DNA of 64,000 nt from Clostridium sp. (GCA_012798835.1 JAAZML010000113.1:1-64000); one strand, 5' to 3'; numbered from the stretch's first letter, positions 9,024-15,753 are shown. Made by a program: numbers and translations. The notes: generated by a model from the sequence alone, not told the origin.

Positions 9024-10295
9024 ATGTTAAAAAGAATCACAGTTCAATTACAATGCTTGGGAATAACTTTTTTACTCATGTTTTCCTTATGGGTAGGGGT
9101 AAGTTTTGCTGTTGGGGAGCAACCACAATTTGATGCCCTATCTGTGATCTTGATTGAATCACAAAGGGGTCAGGTGCTTTATGAGAAGAATCCAGGGGAA
9201 AGGCTCCATATTTCTAGTGCAAATAAAATAATGACTGGTTTGATAGCGCTTGAGAAAATGGGGAACCAGCTTGATTCAAAGGTTACCATCAGTAAAAATG
9301 CAGTTCTGGTCGACGGGGCAAACTTAAATTTAGAGGTCGGCGGGAAATATCCATTAGGGGATCTTGTATACTCGGTTTTGCTAGATTCAGCCAATGATAG
9401 TGCCAATGCTTTGGCCGAATATATAGGCGGAGACGAAGAAACCTTTGTCGAAATTATGAATAAAAGGGCGAAGGAATTGCAAATGAATGACACCCACTTT
9501 ACTAATCCTACAGGATTATATGATCAATCGCAGTATACAACGGCGAATGATATTGCTATTTTAGTGAGACATGCTATTTTAAAGTCGACCGAGTTTGACA
9601 GGATATTTTCTGCGAAGGCTTACCCATGGACCGATAAGAATGGATCCAGGATTTTGATCAATAGCAACGAACTTTTCTGGGTTTATGACGGGATTGATGG
9701 CGGCAGGGTGGGATATAATGATCCAGAACGCCAAACAGTTATCACAACCGCCACGAGAAATGGGCAAAGGCTAATAAGTATTGTGCTGGATTCTCCCGAA
9801 TCCAGCATGTACAATGATTCAATAAAGCTTTTAGATTATGGTTTTGAAAACTTTAGAACCGGTATTTTGGTATCTAATGGAGAACTTTTAAAAAAAATTC
9901 GTATAGGAGAAGATTCGCTTGCCCTTGTAGCATTAGCGGATTACTATTATACCTATCCTGTGGGTAGGGATTATATATCCGAGTTTGATATTATTGTGGG
10001 AGAGGATCTAAAACCGCCGATAGGCAAGGATGAGGTTTTAGGGGTTGCCAAGTACACTTTAGATGACGGTACAGTTATTGAGGTAAATCTCTATACTGAT
10101 TCAGAGATATACTCTACTATGAGTTGGTTTTCAACAGCAGTAGAAAAACTCAACGAATTTAGGGAAATAGTTATATTGCTTTTAATACTTATTTTTATAG
10201 AATTGCTTCTTTTCTCTATCTATATTGCAAAATTTATAAAGAAAAAGTTTTTCAAGTCTCTTGGGAATTTTAAAAAACAAGATGGCAGCAATTAA
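9024..10295 (+). CDS. D-alanyl-D-alanine carboxypeptidase-like protein (S11 family) with altered KTG motif
   Basis: This 423-residue protein has a signal peptide, an S11 peptidase domain and a C-terminal hydrophobic anchor (residues ~385-410), as in PBP5/DacF proteins. SxxK is SANK (residue ~64) and SxN is in DSANDSAN (~120). Where the family has KTG, this protein has GRVGYN (~227), whereas the dacF paralogue later in the window has LKTGFT. The protein may therefore be weakly active, have altered specificity, or be a non-catalytic binder. ATG 9024 gives a normal signal peptide; ATG 8985 is an alternative. Followed by its own terminator. Confidence 0.8.
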   Translation: MLKRITVQLQCLGITFLLMFSLWVGVSFAVGEQPQFDALSVILIESQRGQVLYEKNPGERLHISSANKIMTGLIALEKMGNQLDSKVTISKNAVLVDGANLNLEVGGKYPLGDLVYSVLLDSANDSANALAEYIGGDEETFVEIMNKRAKELQMNDTHFTNPTGLYDQSQYTTANDIAILVRHAILKSTEFDRIFSAKAYPWTDKNGSRILINSNELFWVYDGIDGGRVGYNDPERQTVITTATRNGQRLISIVLDSPESSMYNDSIKLLDYGFENFRTGILVSNGELLKKIRIGEDSLALVALADYYYTYPVGRDYISEFDIIVGEDLKPPIGKDEVLGVAKYTLDDGTVIEVNLYTDSEIYSTMSWFSTAVEKLNEFREIVILLLILIFIELLLFSIYIAKFIKKKFFKSLGNFKKQDGSN

Positions 10296-10371
10296 AACAA
10301 ATTAGCAAAGCCGCGTTGTATGCAGGAATAGCCCGCATAGAAAATGTAATATGCTATGCTCTATAAAGAAT

Positions 10372-10420
10372 AAACCCATAACATATTTAAACAAAAATGC
10401 TTATGGGTTTAGTATCTTTT
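10372..10420 (+). terminator. terminator after the carboxypeptidase-like gene
   Basis: A 10-bp stem, aaacccataa/ttatgggttt, with a 19-base loop is followed by a short T-rich stretch. Confidence 0.55.
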
Positions 10421-10443
10421 TGGAAATTTAAACAGAAACCATG

Positions 10444-10472
10444 TTGACGTATAAACTCAAATCTGTTATAAT
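10444..10472 (+). promoter_or_regulatory. strong sigma-A-type promoter without an obvious gene
   Basis: TTGACG, exactly 17 bases, TATAAT. Nothing clearly coding starts downstream; the nearest candidate is the eroded reading frame at 10605-10787. Confidence 0.55.
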
Positions 10473-10604
10473 TGCATATAGTTTAAGGGAATTTATGGGG
10501 TATTCAATTAATGCATAAAACTGGCCTCTGTACAAACTTACAAAGGCTGATTTTATTATGCATGACTCATTTAGCGCAGCAATATTGAATTATTTTATTA
10601 ATAA

Positions 10605-10787
10605 TGCCTGCGGTTTTCTAAAATAGGGGATTGGACAGAATGTCTTATTCCGTTATTCAAGCAAAAACCACCAGATCCAAAGCTTGCCACAGGAGATATT
10701 GGGATGTTTTATTTTCTCCATCCGCAGGGGATTTGGCATGGGATACAAAAAGAATACAAGCCTAAAATAATTTTCACCAAGGATTGA
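10605..10787 (+). pseudogene. possible gene remnant (C-terminal fragment), unidentified
   Basis: An open frame of 60 codons with no suitable start reads like real protein (LIPLFKQKPPDPKLATGDIG, then MFYFLHPQGIWHGIQKEYK) and ends at a normal stop. It follows a stop-rich region and lies downstream of the orphan promoter at 10444. I do not recognise the family. It is best viewed as the tail of a degraded gene. Confidence 0.35.
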
Positions 10788-10883
10788 TTATGTGGATTTT
10801 AAAGGATGAAATATGCGGTAGAGGCCAAAGGATAGTATACCTGAGAATGGGGAAGTATTATAGATTTTGATGGCTTAAGGTTT

Positions 10884-10913
10884 CTGTCAACTATTATTAG
10901 TTTTGCATATAAT
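10884..10913 (+). promoter_or_regulatory. probable promoter of the c-di-AMP riboswitch transcript
   Basis: CTGTCA, 18 bases, TATAAT, about 90 bases ahead of the riboswitch core. The -10 is perfect and the -35 matches 4 of 6. Confidence 0.45.
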
Positions 10914-10999
10914 ATATTAGTTTTAAGGGATGTAACTATGTAAAAGGAGGTAATCCGGTGTTCTAAGGTTGGGGTAGAATACACTGCAAATGAAAAGTT

Positions 11000-11145
11000 A
11001 TAGCGTTACCTAGCATAAAGCGCTTAATCCATTGAACGGGGGAACCAATGTTTAGGGGTGAATCTTAGCTATTTCGCTAAGTAGGGTCAGTCTCTTTCGA
11101 TCCAAATCCGTCAGCTAACTCCGTAAGCGTTGATAGAGAAGTGTG
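11000..11145 (+). ncRNA. c-di-AMP riboswitch (ydaO/yuaA motif)
   Basis: The conserved blocks appear in the right order: cgcttaatcc, acgggggaaccaatg, aggggtgaatc, a variable hairpin (cttagc-tatttc-gctaag), gtagggt, and finally ccgtcagctaactccgtaag. These are diagnostic of the ydaO/yuaA class, which binds cyclic di-AMP and usually shuts off expression when c-di-AMP is high. A terminator hairpin lies about 40 bases further on, as expected for transcriptional control. The downstream genes are dapB, ablA and ablB. Exact P1 boundaries are approximate. Confidence 0.9.
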
Positions 11146-11180
11146 GGTGCATATTAGCATATTAATGTATGTATAAGCAT

Positions 11181-11209
11181 AGACCGCAGATACTTCCCTG
11201 CGGTTTTTA
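11181..11209 (+). terminator. riboswitch expression-platform terminator
   Basis: The stem accgcag/ctgcggt is followed directly by TTTTT, between the c-di-AMP aptamer and dapB. It is presumably formed in the ligand-bound state. Confidence 0.7.
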
Positions 11210-11400
11210 CTATTTAAAAAACCACGCACATGGGGGTAAACCTGTAGGGAGTACAATTCTTACCGGTGATAACCGAAAACAACTAACATAGGCATAAGGC
11301 ACAGCGGCGGGAAGGTGAAAAGAAGCTACTGATCATAGGCGGATGGTGTGGACAAAAGGGGGATTTTCTACAAATAAATAAGTTGAATGGGGGATTTGAA

Positions 11401-12276
11401 TTGATAAAGATATGTTTAGTCGGAATCGGTAAAACGGGAAGGGAAATTGCAAGGATCATTTTGGAACAAAAGAACATGAAATTGGTTTCGGTTATATGTA
11501 GCCCCAACAGCGAAAAACTAGGTAAGCCACTGGATGAGGTTATAGGATCTAACAATTCAGGGATAATTATCGAAAACCAGGATAATTTAAGGCAGGTTAT
11601 CTTTAAAAACAAGCCTGATGTGGTAATAGATTTTTCAAGTCCCGAGGCGACAATAAGGAATGCCAAAGTTTTTTCTAAAATGAGGGTTAATATTGTAGTG
11701 GGGACAACGGGTTTTTCGGACTTCGCCCTAAAAAGACTGTTTGTGCTAACTAGAATGTACCACAATGCAATTTGTTATGCGCCCAATATAACCTTAGGGG
11801 TCAACGTACTTATGCTCCTTACAAATATCGCCGCTGGCATACTTGACAATTACGATTTTCAGATTACCGAGGTACATCACAGACATAAAAAAGATGCTCC
11901 TTCAGGAACAGCTATAAAAATTGCGCAGGAAGTTAAAAGGGGTCTTAGTTCCGTAGGGGACATGAATGGTGAAGCAAAGGTGCCAATTAGCTCCCACAGA
12001 ATTGGTGGTGTAGTTGGAAAGCACGAAGTTATAATCGCAGGAAACTACGATAAAATTGAAATTAGCCATGAATGTTTTTCTAGAAAGGCTTTTGCTATTG
12101 GGGCAGTTAAGGCTGCTAAGTTTATACACGGAAAGGTTGGGTATTTTGAAATGAGTGATGTCCTGAATTTTGGGAAGGTACTTGAAAGTTATCTTGAAAA
12201 AGAATATAACATAAAAAAAGGGAAGTGTAAAAAATGCAGAACAAATGCTACCGATTCACCTGTAAATGCGATTTGA
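11401..12276 (+). CDS. dapB: 4-hydroxy-tetrahydrodipicolinate reductase
   Basis: It reduces the dipicolinate precursor in the diaminopimelate/lysine pathway. The nucleotide-binding motif is VGIGKTGREIA, GTTGFS lies at the expected place, and the family signature HHRHKKDAPSGTA is intact. The protein has 291 residues, about 20 longer than usual, with a Lys/Cys-rich C-terminal tail. The start is TTG 11401 behind ggggg, giving MIKICLVGIGKTG; the ORF track's TTG 11383 lies before that site. As the first gene after a c-di-AMP riboswitch and directly before ablA-ablB, it probably boosts lysine supply for acetyl-beta-lysine synthesis. Confidence 0.93.
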   Translation: MIKICLVGIGKTGREIARIILEQKNMKLVSVICSPNSEKLGKPLDEVIGSNNSGIIIENQDNLRQVIFKNKPDVVIDFSSPEATIRNAKVFSKMRVNIVVGTTGFSDFALKRLFVLTRMYHNAICYAPNITLGVNVLMLLTNIAAGILDNYDFQITEVHHRHKKDAPSGTAIKIAQEVKRGLSSVGDMNGEAKVPISSHRIGGVVGKHEVIIAGNYDKIEISHECFSRKAFAIGAVKAAKFIHGKVGYFEMSDVLNFGKVLESYLEKEYNIKKGKCKKCRTNATDSPVNAI

Positions 12277-12428
12277 CCTAAAAAGCAGGAAGAATCAATG
12301 CCGCAAACTTTTTTATTTTAAGCATGGATGTTGCTATCATTATGGAATAAGAAGAGTTTGTTTTGTCAAAACAATTACGGATATTATTTAAACTATTATT
12401 GTGCTTAAAAAAAGAGGAGGCAGTACAA

Positions 12429-13706
12429 ATGGAAACGAATTACAAGAAAATAGCTATTTGGGGGGATGTTAAAAAGGAAGATTGGAATAATTGGAAATGG
12501 CAATTATCTAATAGAATCACTACTGTTGAAGAACTGGAGCAAATCATAAACCTTACCGATGAAGAAAGGCAGGGAATCAAAAGATGCCTTAAAACCCTAA
12601 GGATGGGTATAACTCCTTATTATGCTTCCCTTATGGATTCGAATGATTCATCATGCCCTATAAGGCGGCAGGGAATACCCACTATATCAGAGACACTTAT
12701 TTCCCACTCGGACATGAATGATCCTTTGCATGAGGAAAGAGATTCCCCCGTTCCAGGGCTTACACATAGATACCCGGACAGGGTTTTACTTCTTATAACG
12801 GATCAATGCTCAATGTATTGTAGACACTGTACAAGAAGGAGATTTGCGGGTCACGAAGATAAAAACATGTCCCTTAAAAATGTAAACAGAGCAATAGAAT
12901 ATATAAAAAACAATTTGGAAATTAGAGATGTATTAATTTCGGGGGGAGATGCGCTTTGTGTATCGGATAATTTTTTAGAACATATATTAAAAAGCATTCG
13001 AGCCATAAAGCATGTAGAGGTAATTAGAATCGGATCTAGGACACCCGTAGTTATGCCCCAAAGGATAACCCCCGAGTTGTGTAAGATGCTAAAAAAGTAC
13101 CATCCAGTGTGGCTGAATACGCATTCTAACCACCCGAAGGAGGTTACACGGGAAGCGAAAAATGCATGCAGAATGTTGGCGGATGCGGGAGTTCCTCTGG
13201 GGAATCAGTCAGTTTTGCTAAGGGGAATAAATGATTGCCCTTATATAATGAAAAACCTTGTTCACAAACTTGTAAAAAATCGGATTAGGCCCTACTATCT
13301 TTATCAATGTGATTTGTCCGAAGGAATTGAGCATTTTAGGACGCCTGTATCGGCAGGGGTAGAAATAATTGAAATGCTTAGGGGCCATACCTCGGGCTTT
13401 GCAGTACCGACCTTTGTTGTGGACGCCCCAGGGGGAGGAGGGAAAATACCCATAAATCCCCAATATATTGTATCCCAATCACCGGAGAAGCTGATACTCC
13501 GAAACTTTGAAGGTGTGATATGCTCCTATTCAGAACCCGAAGATAAGACGCATGAGTGTAAAAATTGTGGTATTTGCAAAAAATACAAGAAGAACGATTC
13601 AAGGGGAATAGGACAGTTATATGAAGAGGATAGAATAAGCCTCATACCAAGAAGTAATGTCAGAATGAATAAAAGGGAGAGCATAAGTAAACATGCAAAT
13701 GTGTAA
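12429..13706 (+). CDS. ablA: lysine 2,3-aminomutase
   Basis: This radical SAM, PLP-dependent enzyme converts L-lysine to beta-lysine. The 425 residues include the cluster motif CSMYCRHC (residues ~126-133), followed by TRRRFAG, as in known aminomutases, and the PLP region VDAPGGGGKIP. The C-terminal Cys cluster (HECKNCGICKKYKK) resembles the zinc-site tail of KamA/AblA. ATG 12429 follows gaggagg; the track's upstream TTG has no good site. It overlaps ablB by 14 bases, so the two are translationally coupled. This pairing marks N-epsilon-acetyl-beta-lysine synthesis rather than lysine fermentation. Confidence 0.93.
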   Translation: METNYKKIAIWGDVKKEDWNNWKWQLSNRITTVEELEQIINLTDEERQGIKRCLKTLRMGITPYYASLMDSNDSSCPIRRQGIPTISETLISHSDMNDPLHEERDSPVPGLTHRYPDRVLLLITDQCSMYCRHCTRRRFAGHEDKNMSLKNVNRAIEYIKNNLEIRDVLISGGDALCVSDNFLEHILKSIRAIKHVEVIRIGSRTPVVMPQRITPELCKMLKKYHPVWLNTHSNHPKEVTREAKNACRMLADAGVPLGNQSVLLRGINDCPYIMKNLVHKLVKNRIRPYYLYQCDLSEGIEHFRTPVSAGVEIIEMLRGHTSGFAVPTFVVDAPGGGGKIPINPQYIVSQSPEKLILRNFEGVICSYSEPEDKTHECKNCGICKKYKKNDSRGIGQLYEEDRISLIPRSNVRMNKRESISKHANV

Positions 13707-14598
13707 TGAAGTTATCGAATTCGAAGGAATAGAAAGTTACATTGATTATACAAATTTAAGATTAAAAATTTTAAATTATGAAATATTATCAAAAGAGCTA
13801 CTTTTAAAGGTCCTAGTCTTAGCACGGGATAAGGGGTTGGGAAAAGTACTGTGCAATTGTAGAGTTAGGGATCTTGTCTTTTTTAGAAAGATGGGTTTTG
13901 TAGTCGAAGGGTTAATAAGTGGTTTCTTTAGGGGAAGGGATGCATACTGTGTATCCTTTTTCCTAAATAAAGATAGGGTCCATTCAAAAAGAGAAGAGGA
14001 AGAGGAAGAGATACTAAAGATGTGTTTTGATGAAAAAAGGATCTCAAAACCTCGAAAAATAGATGAACAGTACAAAATAAGGGATTGTGTTGAAGATGAT
14101 ATTCCACAAATGATAAAGTTATTTAAAAAAGTTTTTAAAACGTATCCCGCACCCGTGTTTGAGGAAGAATATCTTAGGGAAATGATTAATGAAAAAATTT
14201 TATTCAAGGGTGTATTTAGCACTAATGGTCTCATAAGCATTGCTTCGGCGGATCTAGACAGTAAAAACTTAAATGCCGAAATAACCGATTGTGCTACCTA
14301 TCCAAAGTACAGAGGGCGGGGGCTATTGTCCAATCTTATAAATGAGCTTGAAGAGGATCTAAAAGCCAGGGGATACTATATTCTATATAGCCTTAGCAGA
14401 GCAATAAATGCAGGGATAAATATCTCTTTAAGAAAGCAGGGATACTATTATGGTGGGAGACTTATAAATAACTGTAATATCTGCGGTGGATTTGAAGATA
14501 TGAACATCTGGATAAAAAACTTAAAGCCTAATGTTTTATCTAAACCAGATAAAAGAAAAAACACTACTGTGCAACAGGGGAGATTCGTTCCACATTAG
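13693..14598 (+). CDS. ablB: beta-lysine N-acetyltransferase (GNAT)
   Basis: The acetylating enzyme of the ablAB pathway transfers acetyl from acetyl-CoA to the epsilon amino group of beta-lysine to give the compatible solute N-epsilon-acetyl-beta-lysine. The 301 residues have an N-terminal half typical of AblB (GLGKVLCNCRVRD, then FRKMGFVVEGLISGFF) and a C-terminal GNAT domain with the acetyl-CoA loop YRGRGLLSNLI. It overlaps the ablA end by 14 bases. Its stop lies inside the terminator hairpin. Known in methanogens and some halotolerant bacteria. Confidence 0.9.
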   Translation: MQMCNEVIEFEGIESYIDYTNLRLKILNYEILSKELLLKVLVLARDKGLGKVLCNCRVRDLVFFRKMGFVVEGLISGFFRGRDAYCVSFFLNKDRVHSKREEEEEEILKMCFDEKRISKPRKIDEQYKIRDCVEDDIPQMIKLFKKVFKTYPAPVFEEEYLREMINEKILFKGVFSTNGLISIASADLDSKNLNAEITDCATYPKYRGRGLLSNLINELEEDLKARGYYILYSLSRAINAGINISLRKQGYYYGGRLINNCNICGGFEDMNIWIKNLKPNVLSKPDKRKNTTVQQGRFVPH

Positions 14599-14606
14599 TG
14601 TTTTGT
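14558..14606 (+). terminator. terminator overlapping the ablB stop
   Basis: The 9-bp stem aaaacacta/tagtgtttt closes the dapB-ablA-ablB unit. The hairpin straddles the ablB stop codon; the T run forms the right arm. Confidence 0.5.
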
Positions 14607-14702
14607 TCGAGATATGAATAAAGTTATAAAAAAGAGACGATATATTCTATAGTTATATCTATTCTATATAGCAGGCTAAAATCCTTCTTTTCAGGAGGTA
14701 AA

Positions 14703-14726
14703 ATGTGCAGTAGCAAAAAAATTTAG
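14703..14726 (+). promoter_or_regulatory. possible leader peptide MCSSKKI upstream of cysK
   Basis: A strong caggaggt precedes an ATG that opens a seven-codon frame with Cys and two Ser codons near its start, then stops. It lies about 100 bases ahead of cysteine synthase. This could be a translational attenuator sensing cysteine (or serine) supply. It may also be chance; the spacing from the ribosome site to ATG is short (4 bases). Confidence 0.35.
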
Positions 14727-14823
14727 CGGTATGGTAATCATAGTAAAGTAGTGGGATTTGATATATAATATAGCCTAGGAACATTTGTAGTATTTATTGA
14801 CTAATATTAATGGAGGCGATAAC

Positions 14824-15753
14824 ATGGGTAAAATTGCAAGAAATTTGATGGAGCTAATAGGTAATACGCCCCTTCTGGAGCTCGGCAATTATAATAGGAT
14901 ACAGGGGTTAGGGGCTAGGCTTATTGCAAAGCTTGAGTATTTTAACCCAGGTGGGAGCGTTAAAGATAGGATTGGTTATGCAATGATAAGGGATGCGCAA
15001 GACAGGGGGCTTATTGACAAAGAAACCGTTATAATTGAACCTACCAGTGGTAATACTGGAATTGCATTGGCCATGGTAGCTGCTGCAAGTGGGTACCGCC
15101 TAATCCTTACGATGCCTGATACCATGAGCAGCGAAAGGATTGCCCTTTTAAAAGCGCTAGGCGCAGAGCTTGTGCTGACACCAGGGGTTGAAGGAATGAA
15201 GGGTTCTATAAAAAAAGCCGAGCAGTTGGCATCTGAAATTTCTAATTCGTTTATTCCCCAGCAGTTTAAAAATAGATCCAACCCGCAAATACACAGAGAA
15301 ACCACGGCCCAGGAAATTTTAAGGGATACTAATGGTGGGGTTGATATATTTGTAGCTGGAATAGGTACGGGCGGTACAATAACTGGAGTCGGAGAAATAC
15401 TAAAGCAGGAGAAACCCAGCGTAAGACTTGTTGCAGTAGAACCCGAGGACTCGGCCGTATTATCCGGGGAAGGGCCTGGATCCCACAAGATACAGGGTAT
15501 AGGTGCCGGCTTTATACCAGAGATCTTAAATATGGACATAATTGATGAAATATATAAGGTGAAAAATGACGAAGCTTTTATGACGGCTAGAAATCTTGCG
15601 TCTAGTGAGGGGTTGCTTGTGGGGATTTCGTCGGGGGCAGCAACTTTTGCGGCAACTGAAATGGCGAAAAGATCCGAGAACAAGGGCAAAACCATAGTTG
15701 TGCTTTTACCGGATACGGGAGAGAGATATCTTTCTACCAAATTGTTTGGTTGA
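14824..15753 (+). CDS. cysK: cysteine synthase (O-acetylserine sulfhydrylase)
   Basis: This PLP enzyme joins O-acetylserine and sulfide to form cysteine. The 309 residues contain the PLP lysine in PGGSVKDR (residue ~45), the substrate loop [14 protein letters not shown], the phosphate-binding GTGGTITG, and SSGAA near the end. It starts at ATG 14824 after ggaggcgat. It is monocistronic, downstream of the acetyl-beta-lysine operon and preceded by a possible Cys leader peptide. No serine acetyltransferase gene is seen nearby. Confidence 0.95.

Follow-up and report, generated by a model that had tools for sequence, protein, structure and literature searches.

The closest described systems were reported in 2022 (PMC9337991). 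In that study, c-di-AMP terminated transcription in vitro before the ablA gene of Dehalobacter, so that OFF behavior of the leader was measured, and the dapB of Acetivibrio cellulolyticus was found to be preceded by tandem Na+/c-di-AMP riboswitches (PMC9337991, Extended Data Fig. 6). The earlier note on the DNA studied here had read a c-di-AMP riboswitch in front of dapB, ablA, and ablB as a means of shutting down osmolyte synthesis in turgid cells, and had supposed that the coupling to ablAB and dapB might not be well described. That coupling had already been described in the 2022 paper, whose authors put forward the same osmotic reasoning for ablA and suggested that the A. cellulolyticus dapB has a function in the cell wall.

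We analyzed a 64,000-nt stretch of Clostridium sp. DNA, referred to as the window. The proposal that a ydaO/yuaA aptamer and a terminator precede dapB-ablA-ablB was borne out (Table 1). The aptamer matched RF00379 in both sequence and structure, significantly and far above the curated gathering score of 38, with the E value computed for the whole window; the only other RNA-family matches across the window in Rfam were two tRNAs. By its class, the element is predicted to bind c-di-AMP. The hairpin located downstream of it (AGACCGCAG-ATACTTCC-CTGCGGTTT; −12.4 to −13.4 kcal/mol for the hairpin alone) resembles an intrinsic terminator, a position compatible with OFF control. No Na+ aptamer (RF03071) was detected in positions 10250–14900 at E ≤ 5, and the tandem Na+/c-di-AMP arrangement is not present there; the Rfam search likewise gave no hidden Na+ riboswitch and no RNA of another known family, either in the leader or within the 190 nt that separate the terminator from dapB. 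Elsewhere in the genome, a single Na+ riboswitch was detected, on another contig (L134:2913-2970; G000:C148:23412-23469); it lies after trpB and a membrane-pyrophosphatase-like gene and is followed by more than 3 kb without a plus-strand ORF of at least 100 aa.

Table 1. Features of the c-di-AMP riboswitch-dapB2-ablA-ablB locus (positions in the window).
Feature	Position	Strand	Basis
Candidate promoter CTGTCA-18-TATAAT	10884..10913	+	Consensus match 10/12
c-di-AMP riboswitch aptamer, RF00379 ydaO/yuaA class	11011..11143	+	cmscan 90.8 bits, E 5.4e-20, full-length
Candidate antiterminator strand	11123..11146	+	P1 3' side and purine-rich tail AGAGAAGUGUGG
Riboswitch intrinsic terminator	11181..11206	+	9-pair stem, then T-run
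dapB2, second 4-hydroxy-tetrahydrodipicolinate (HTPA) reductase, 291 aa	11401..12276	+	TIGR00036, PF05173/PF01113
ablA, lysine 2,3-aminomutase	12429..13706	+	TIGR03820, start ATG 12429
ablB, beta-lysine N-acetyltransferase	13693..14598	+	TIGR03827
Probable operon-end terminator	14555..14606 (about)	+	Stem AAAACACUA...UAGUGUUUU, −16.8 kcal/mol, z −2.43

The identification of the three genes as dapB, ablA, and ablB was confirmed by the curated NCBIfam cut-offs on which the gene calls rest, all of which were exceeded (197 bits vs. 122, 633 vs. 525, and 282 vs. 205, respectively). The dapB ORF opens at 11383; however, the start is most likely the TTG codon at 11401, since it is preceded by GGGGGA and relatives start at the same residue. 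The catalytic segment of the reductase is present (EVHHRHKKDAPSGTA). The ablA product was taken as a lysine and not a glutamate 2,3-aminomutase, because its score exceeded the lysine cut-off of 525.4, whereas the rival glutamate 2,3-aminomutase model gave 505, below its cut-off of 650. In addition, AblA aligned over almost its full length with a lysine 2,3-aminomutase of known structure (PDB 2a5h, phmmer E 8e-184) and retains the radical-SAM CSMYCRHC, CDLS, and DAPGGGGK segments. The ablA and ablB equivalogs are adjacent, with the start of ablB overlapping the end of ablA by 14 nt, and their combined product would be acetyl-beta-lysine.

The layout of the leader fits an OFF switch acting on one transcript. 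At high c-di-AMP, i.e., in a turgid, K+-replete cell, the folded aptamer would hold the P1 3' strand and its tail; with these held, the terminator would form, and transcription would stop near 11206. The ydaO/yuaA-class riboswitch would thereby serve as a transcriptional OFF switch for the single unit dapB2-ablA-ablB. The candidate antiterminator containing AGAGAAGUGUGG is complementary to the left side, the loop, and the U-tract of the terminator, and the predicted energy of this duplex is −16.3 kcal/mol, a value that 33% of shuffled terminators match, so the pairing in the window does no better than shuffles and is weaker than in relatives. In L227, L228, and L044, the corresponding pairing reached −25 to −27 kcal/mol and was better than with any of 300 shuffled terminators; in L239 and L224, nearly all of the shuffles were surpassed. 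In relatives from the genus and family, the aptamer 3' tail AGAGA..GUGUGG is complementary to the left shoulder and loop of the terminator, and the P1 3' strand is complementary to its right side. A second group (L226, L241, L240, L204, and L058) has a terminator that starts with AACGC or GACGC, complementary to P1 GCGUU. Both designs would let ligand-stabilized P1 free the terminator and would act as OFF switches.

The same arrangement recurs in other genomes. A same-strand c-di-AMP aptamer was found upstream of the abl genes in 29 of the 80 named AblB loci (22 of the 29 confirmed with Rfam; the match at L092, positioned after ablB, was excluded), and these loci belong to Clostridium, Acetivibrio, Herbivorax, Pelotomaculum, Syntrophomonas, and other Bacillota. 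The anatomy of the locus, its recurrence, and the published in vitro termination on a relative (PMC9337991) thus give good support to the suggestion that c-di-AMP controls acetyl-beta-lysine genes, and for ablAB the osmotic mechanism is most likely correct. In several Clostridium genomes, the c-di-AMP riboswitch stands directly before ablB without ablA (L078, L091, and L113), or no ablA was found between dapB2 and ablB (L072 and L105).

The dapB gene of the window is a second copy. In the host genome (91% complete, 171 contigs), the other dapB is located on contig C98 in an asd-dapA-dapB cluster behind a lysine riboswitch (L053:5818-9070), which ruled out the view that the window gene is the only dapB and hence a plain lysine gene. 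It also places a single HTPA reductase step under two signals, lysine and c-di-AMP. Sequence identity between the window DapB and the housekeeping DapB of its own genome is 33%, compared with 51–72% to the DapB proteins encoded in other riboswitch units; on the phylogenetic trees, this DapB2 clade was separate from housekeeping DapB (SH-aLRT 96–100). A second full-length dapB was present in all checked dapB2 genomes except G408.

A profile search (DapB2 profile A3) across 391 genomes of the class detected dapB2 in 40 of them and in 12 of the 14 genomes of the family, and joining these hits with aptamer positions placed an aptamer directly upstream of dapB2 in at least 29 of the 40. The ablA-ablB pair follows riboswitch-dapB2 in only four genomes, i.e., the window genome, G330, G249, and G389, so the wider unit is riboswitch-dapB2. 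Riboswitch-dapB2 is present without ablA-ablB behind it in five genomes of the same genus as the window genome. Between the dapB2 genes of such genus mates, dN/dS was about 0.06–0.12, a sign of strong purifying selection, which shows that dapB2 is a working gene without ablAB. In many other riboswitch-dapB2 units, the next gene is convergent and dapB2 therefore stands alone. The abl-linked dapB2 copies did not form one clade (p-AU 0.0002), so a single origin of the linkage was rejected and the linkage must have been gained or lost repeatedly. Overall, ablAB is an optional downstream partner of riboswitch-dapB2 that was joined or lost several times. An apparent ablA relic in the genus mate G180, considered as a trace of ablAB loss, was actually a complete gene of the KamA type at another place in the genome, with 59% identity and no ablB.

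Several other arrangements were observed at related loci. In some genus mates, a membrane-anchored class-A beta-lactamase-like protein replaces ablA-ablB after dapB2 (L135:2339-3490; equivalents in L238, L239, and L224). A group II intron lies between the c-di-AMP aptamer and dapB2 in G249, within the regulated leader (L047:4123-4949), and in several family members an opposite-strand c-di-GMP-I riboswitch is located near ablB or dapB2 (L044, L045/L055, L054, L136, and L137).

These data bear on the suggestion that having dapB in the unit tunes precursor supply for the osmolyte, which stood only in part. In its favor, ablB was found in 10 of the 40 dapB2 genomes (about 2 expected) compared with 12 of the 351 others (Fisher p 1e-5, kinship ignored), and 10 of the 29 loci have dapB2 placed after the aptamer and before the abl genes (L054, L055, L058, L063, L066, L068, L071, L072, L075, and L105). 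However, dapB2 usually has a c-di-AMP riboswitch to itself, with no ablAB, and must therefore serve in some way that is independent of acetyl-beta-lysine. An alternative with a chance somewhat short of even is that dapB2 mainly serves peptidoglycan: low c-di-AMP would raise diaminopimelate for the wall under osmotic or growth demand, and the gene would share a riboswitch with ablAB and not feed beta-lysine. At least 25 of the 29 riboswitch-dapB2 units lack ablAB downstream, and AblA was absent at E ≤ 1e-80 from 24 of the 31 dapB2 genomes scanned. Moreover, a class-A beta-lactamase-like protein follows dapB2 in the genus mates G348, G112, G180, and G432, a D-Ala-D-Ala carboxypeptidase precedes it in G348 as in the window, and a wall role has been argued for the A. 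cellulolyticus dapB (PMC9337991). The excess of dapB2-ablB co-occurrence speaks against this alternative, as does the order riboswitch-dapB2-abl, which at least two separate clades have acquired or retained.

The divergence of DapB2 raised the question of its function. Its dinucleotide-binding part carries GxG(K/R)TG and (V/I)CSPxS, whereas housekeeping DapB has GCNGKMG and an acidic residue ending beta-2 at the corresponding part. These differences could mean that DapB2, instead of being a plain HTPA reductase, acts on another cyclic imine or with an altered cofactor. We consider this improbable: the catalytic segment ExH(H/F)xxKxDxPS(G/A)(T/S)A and a later arginine are conserved in every one of the 48 aligned DapB2 rows, the nearest solved structures are HTPA reductases, and the loss of the acidic residue may be read more simply as a preference for NADPH.

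With respect to transcription, a second candidate promoter with an 11/12 match to the sigma-70-type consensus is located at 10444–10472, in addition to that listed in Table 1; promoter-like sites are no commoner than in shuffled sequences, and position alone suggests a function for 10884–10913. The earlier note had named two observations that would speak against its reading, a missing RF00379 match and a separate promoter after 11209. Neither was made: RF00379 matched, and no sigma-70-type site of at least 9/12 was found, as far as a simple scan can show, on the plus strand from the terminator to the start of ablB. The same scan found no terminator in the dapB-ablA gap. A single transcript across dapB2-ablA-ablB is the arrangement we infer, and the stem-loop across the ablB stop probably ends it. 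An own promoter that mainly drives ablA-ablB, leaving dapB2 alone to the riboswitch, is unlikely: although the gap of 152 nt could hold a weak internal promoter and simple scans overlook many, the scan results, the ablA-ablB overlap, the short dapB2-ablA spacing in most related loci, and the aptamers directly before ablA without dapB2 in G278 and others all stand against it.

From the observed sequence elements, gene identities, paralogy, and recurrence, we consider it very probable that the locus is a dapB2-ablA-ablB unit under a c-di-AMP OFF riboswitch, in which dapB2 is a dedicated paralog, riboswitch-dapB2 is the more widespread arrangement, and ablAB is optional. The dapB part of the initial reading should thus be restated: a second HTPA reductase controlled by c-di-AMP forms the conserved core, to which acetyl-beta-lysine synthesis is attached as one optional partner. 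More tentatively, and with rather less than an even chance in our estimate, clostridia may have split one lysine/diaminopimelate (DAP) step between two HTPA reductases, the housekeeping one under a lysine riboswitch and DapB2, diverged and altered in its cofactor-binding signature, under a c-di-AMP riboswitch of its own. Such a division would be a conserved means of keeping the step running past lysine feedback at low turgor, with ablAB as one of several sinks. Independently of any osmolyte genes, the amount of a second reductase of the lysine/DAP pathway seems to be set by c-di-AMP in many clostridia. The dapB2 family is therefore the part worth following, as it offers a testable link between c-di-AMP and the supply of amino-acid or wall precursors in genetically tractable organisms. 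In the openly accessible literature, we found no report of dapB2 as a second copy, or as widespread under c-di-AMP riboswitches alone.

Comparison with the known systems demonstrated both shared and distinct features. As in the tandem of Dehalobacter sp. CF (PMC9337991), a c-di-AMP aptamer and an intrinsic terminator precede a lysine 2,3-aminomutase gene; however, the window has no Na+ aptamer, its first gene is dapB2, and its OFF direction is predicted, whereas the Dehalobacter switch was tested in vitro. With A. cellulolyticus (PMC9337991), a related bacterium, the window shares a c-di-AMP riboswitch before a dapB, but its unit runs on into ablA-ablB and lacks the Na+ aptamer; the text of that account is silent on ablAB there and on dapB being a second copy. 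The order riboswitch-dapB2-ablA-ablB is also found in the Clostridia MAG SKW257 (L058) and in G249 (L047), both of which, unlike the window, have a Na+ riboswitch upstream as in the published tandem. The methanogen ablAB genes for acetyl-beta-lysine (cited in PMC9337991) encode the same two enzymes, whereas in the window these genes lie behind a c-di-AMP riboswitch with a linked dapB2. Since the link between the riboswitch and ablAB had already been published, what the present locus adds is a clean single-input example.
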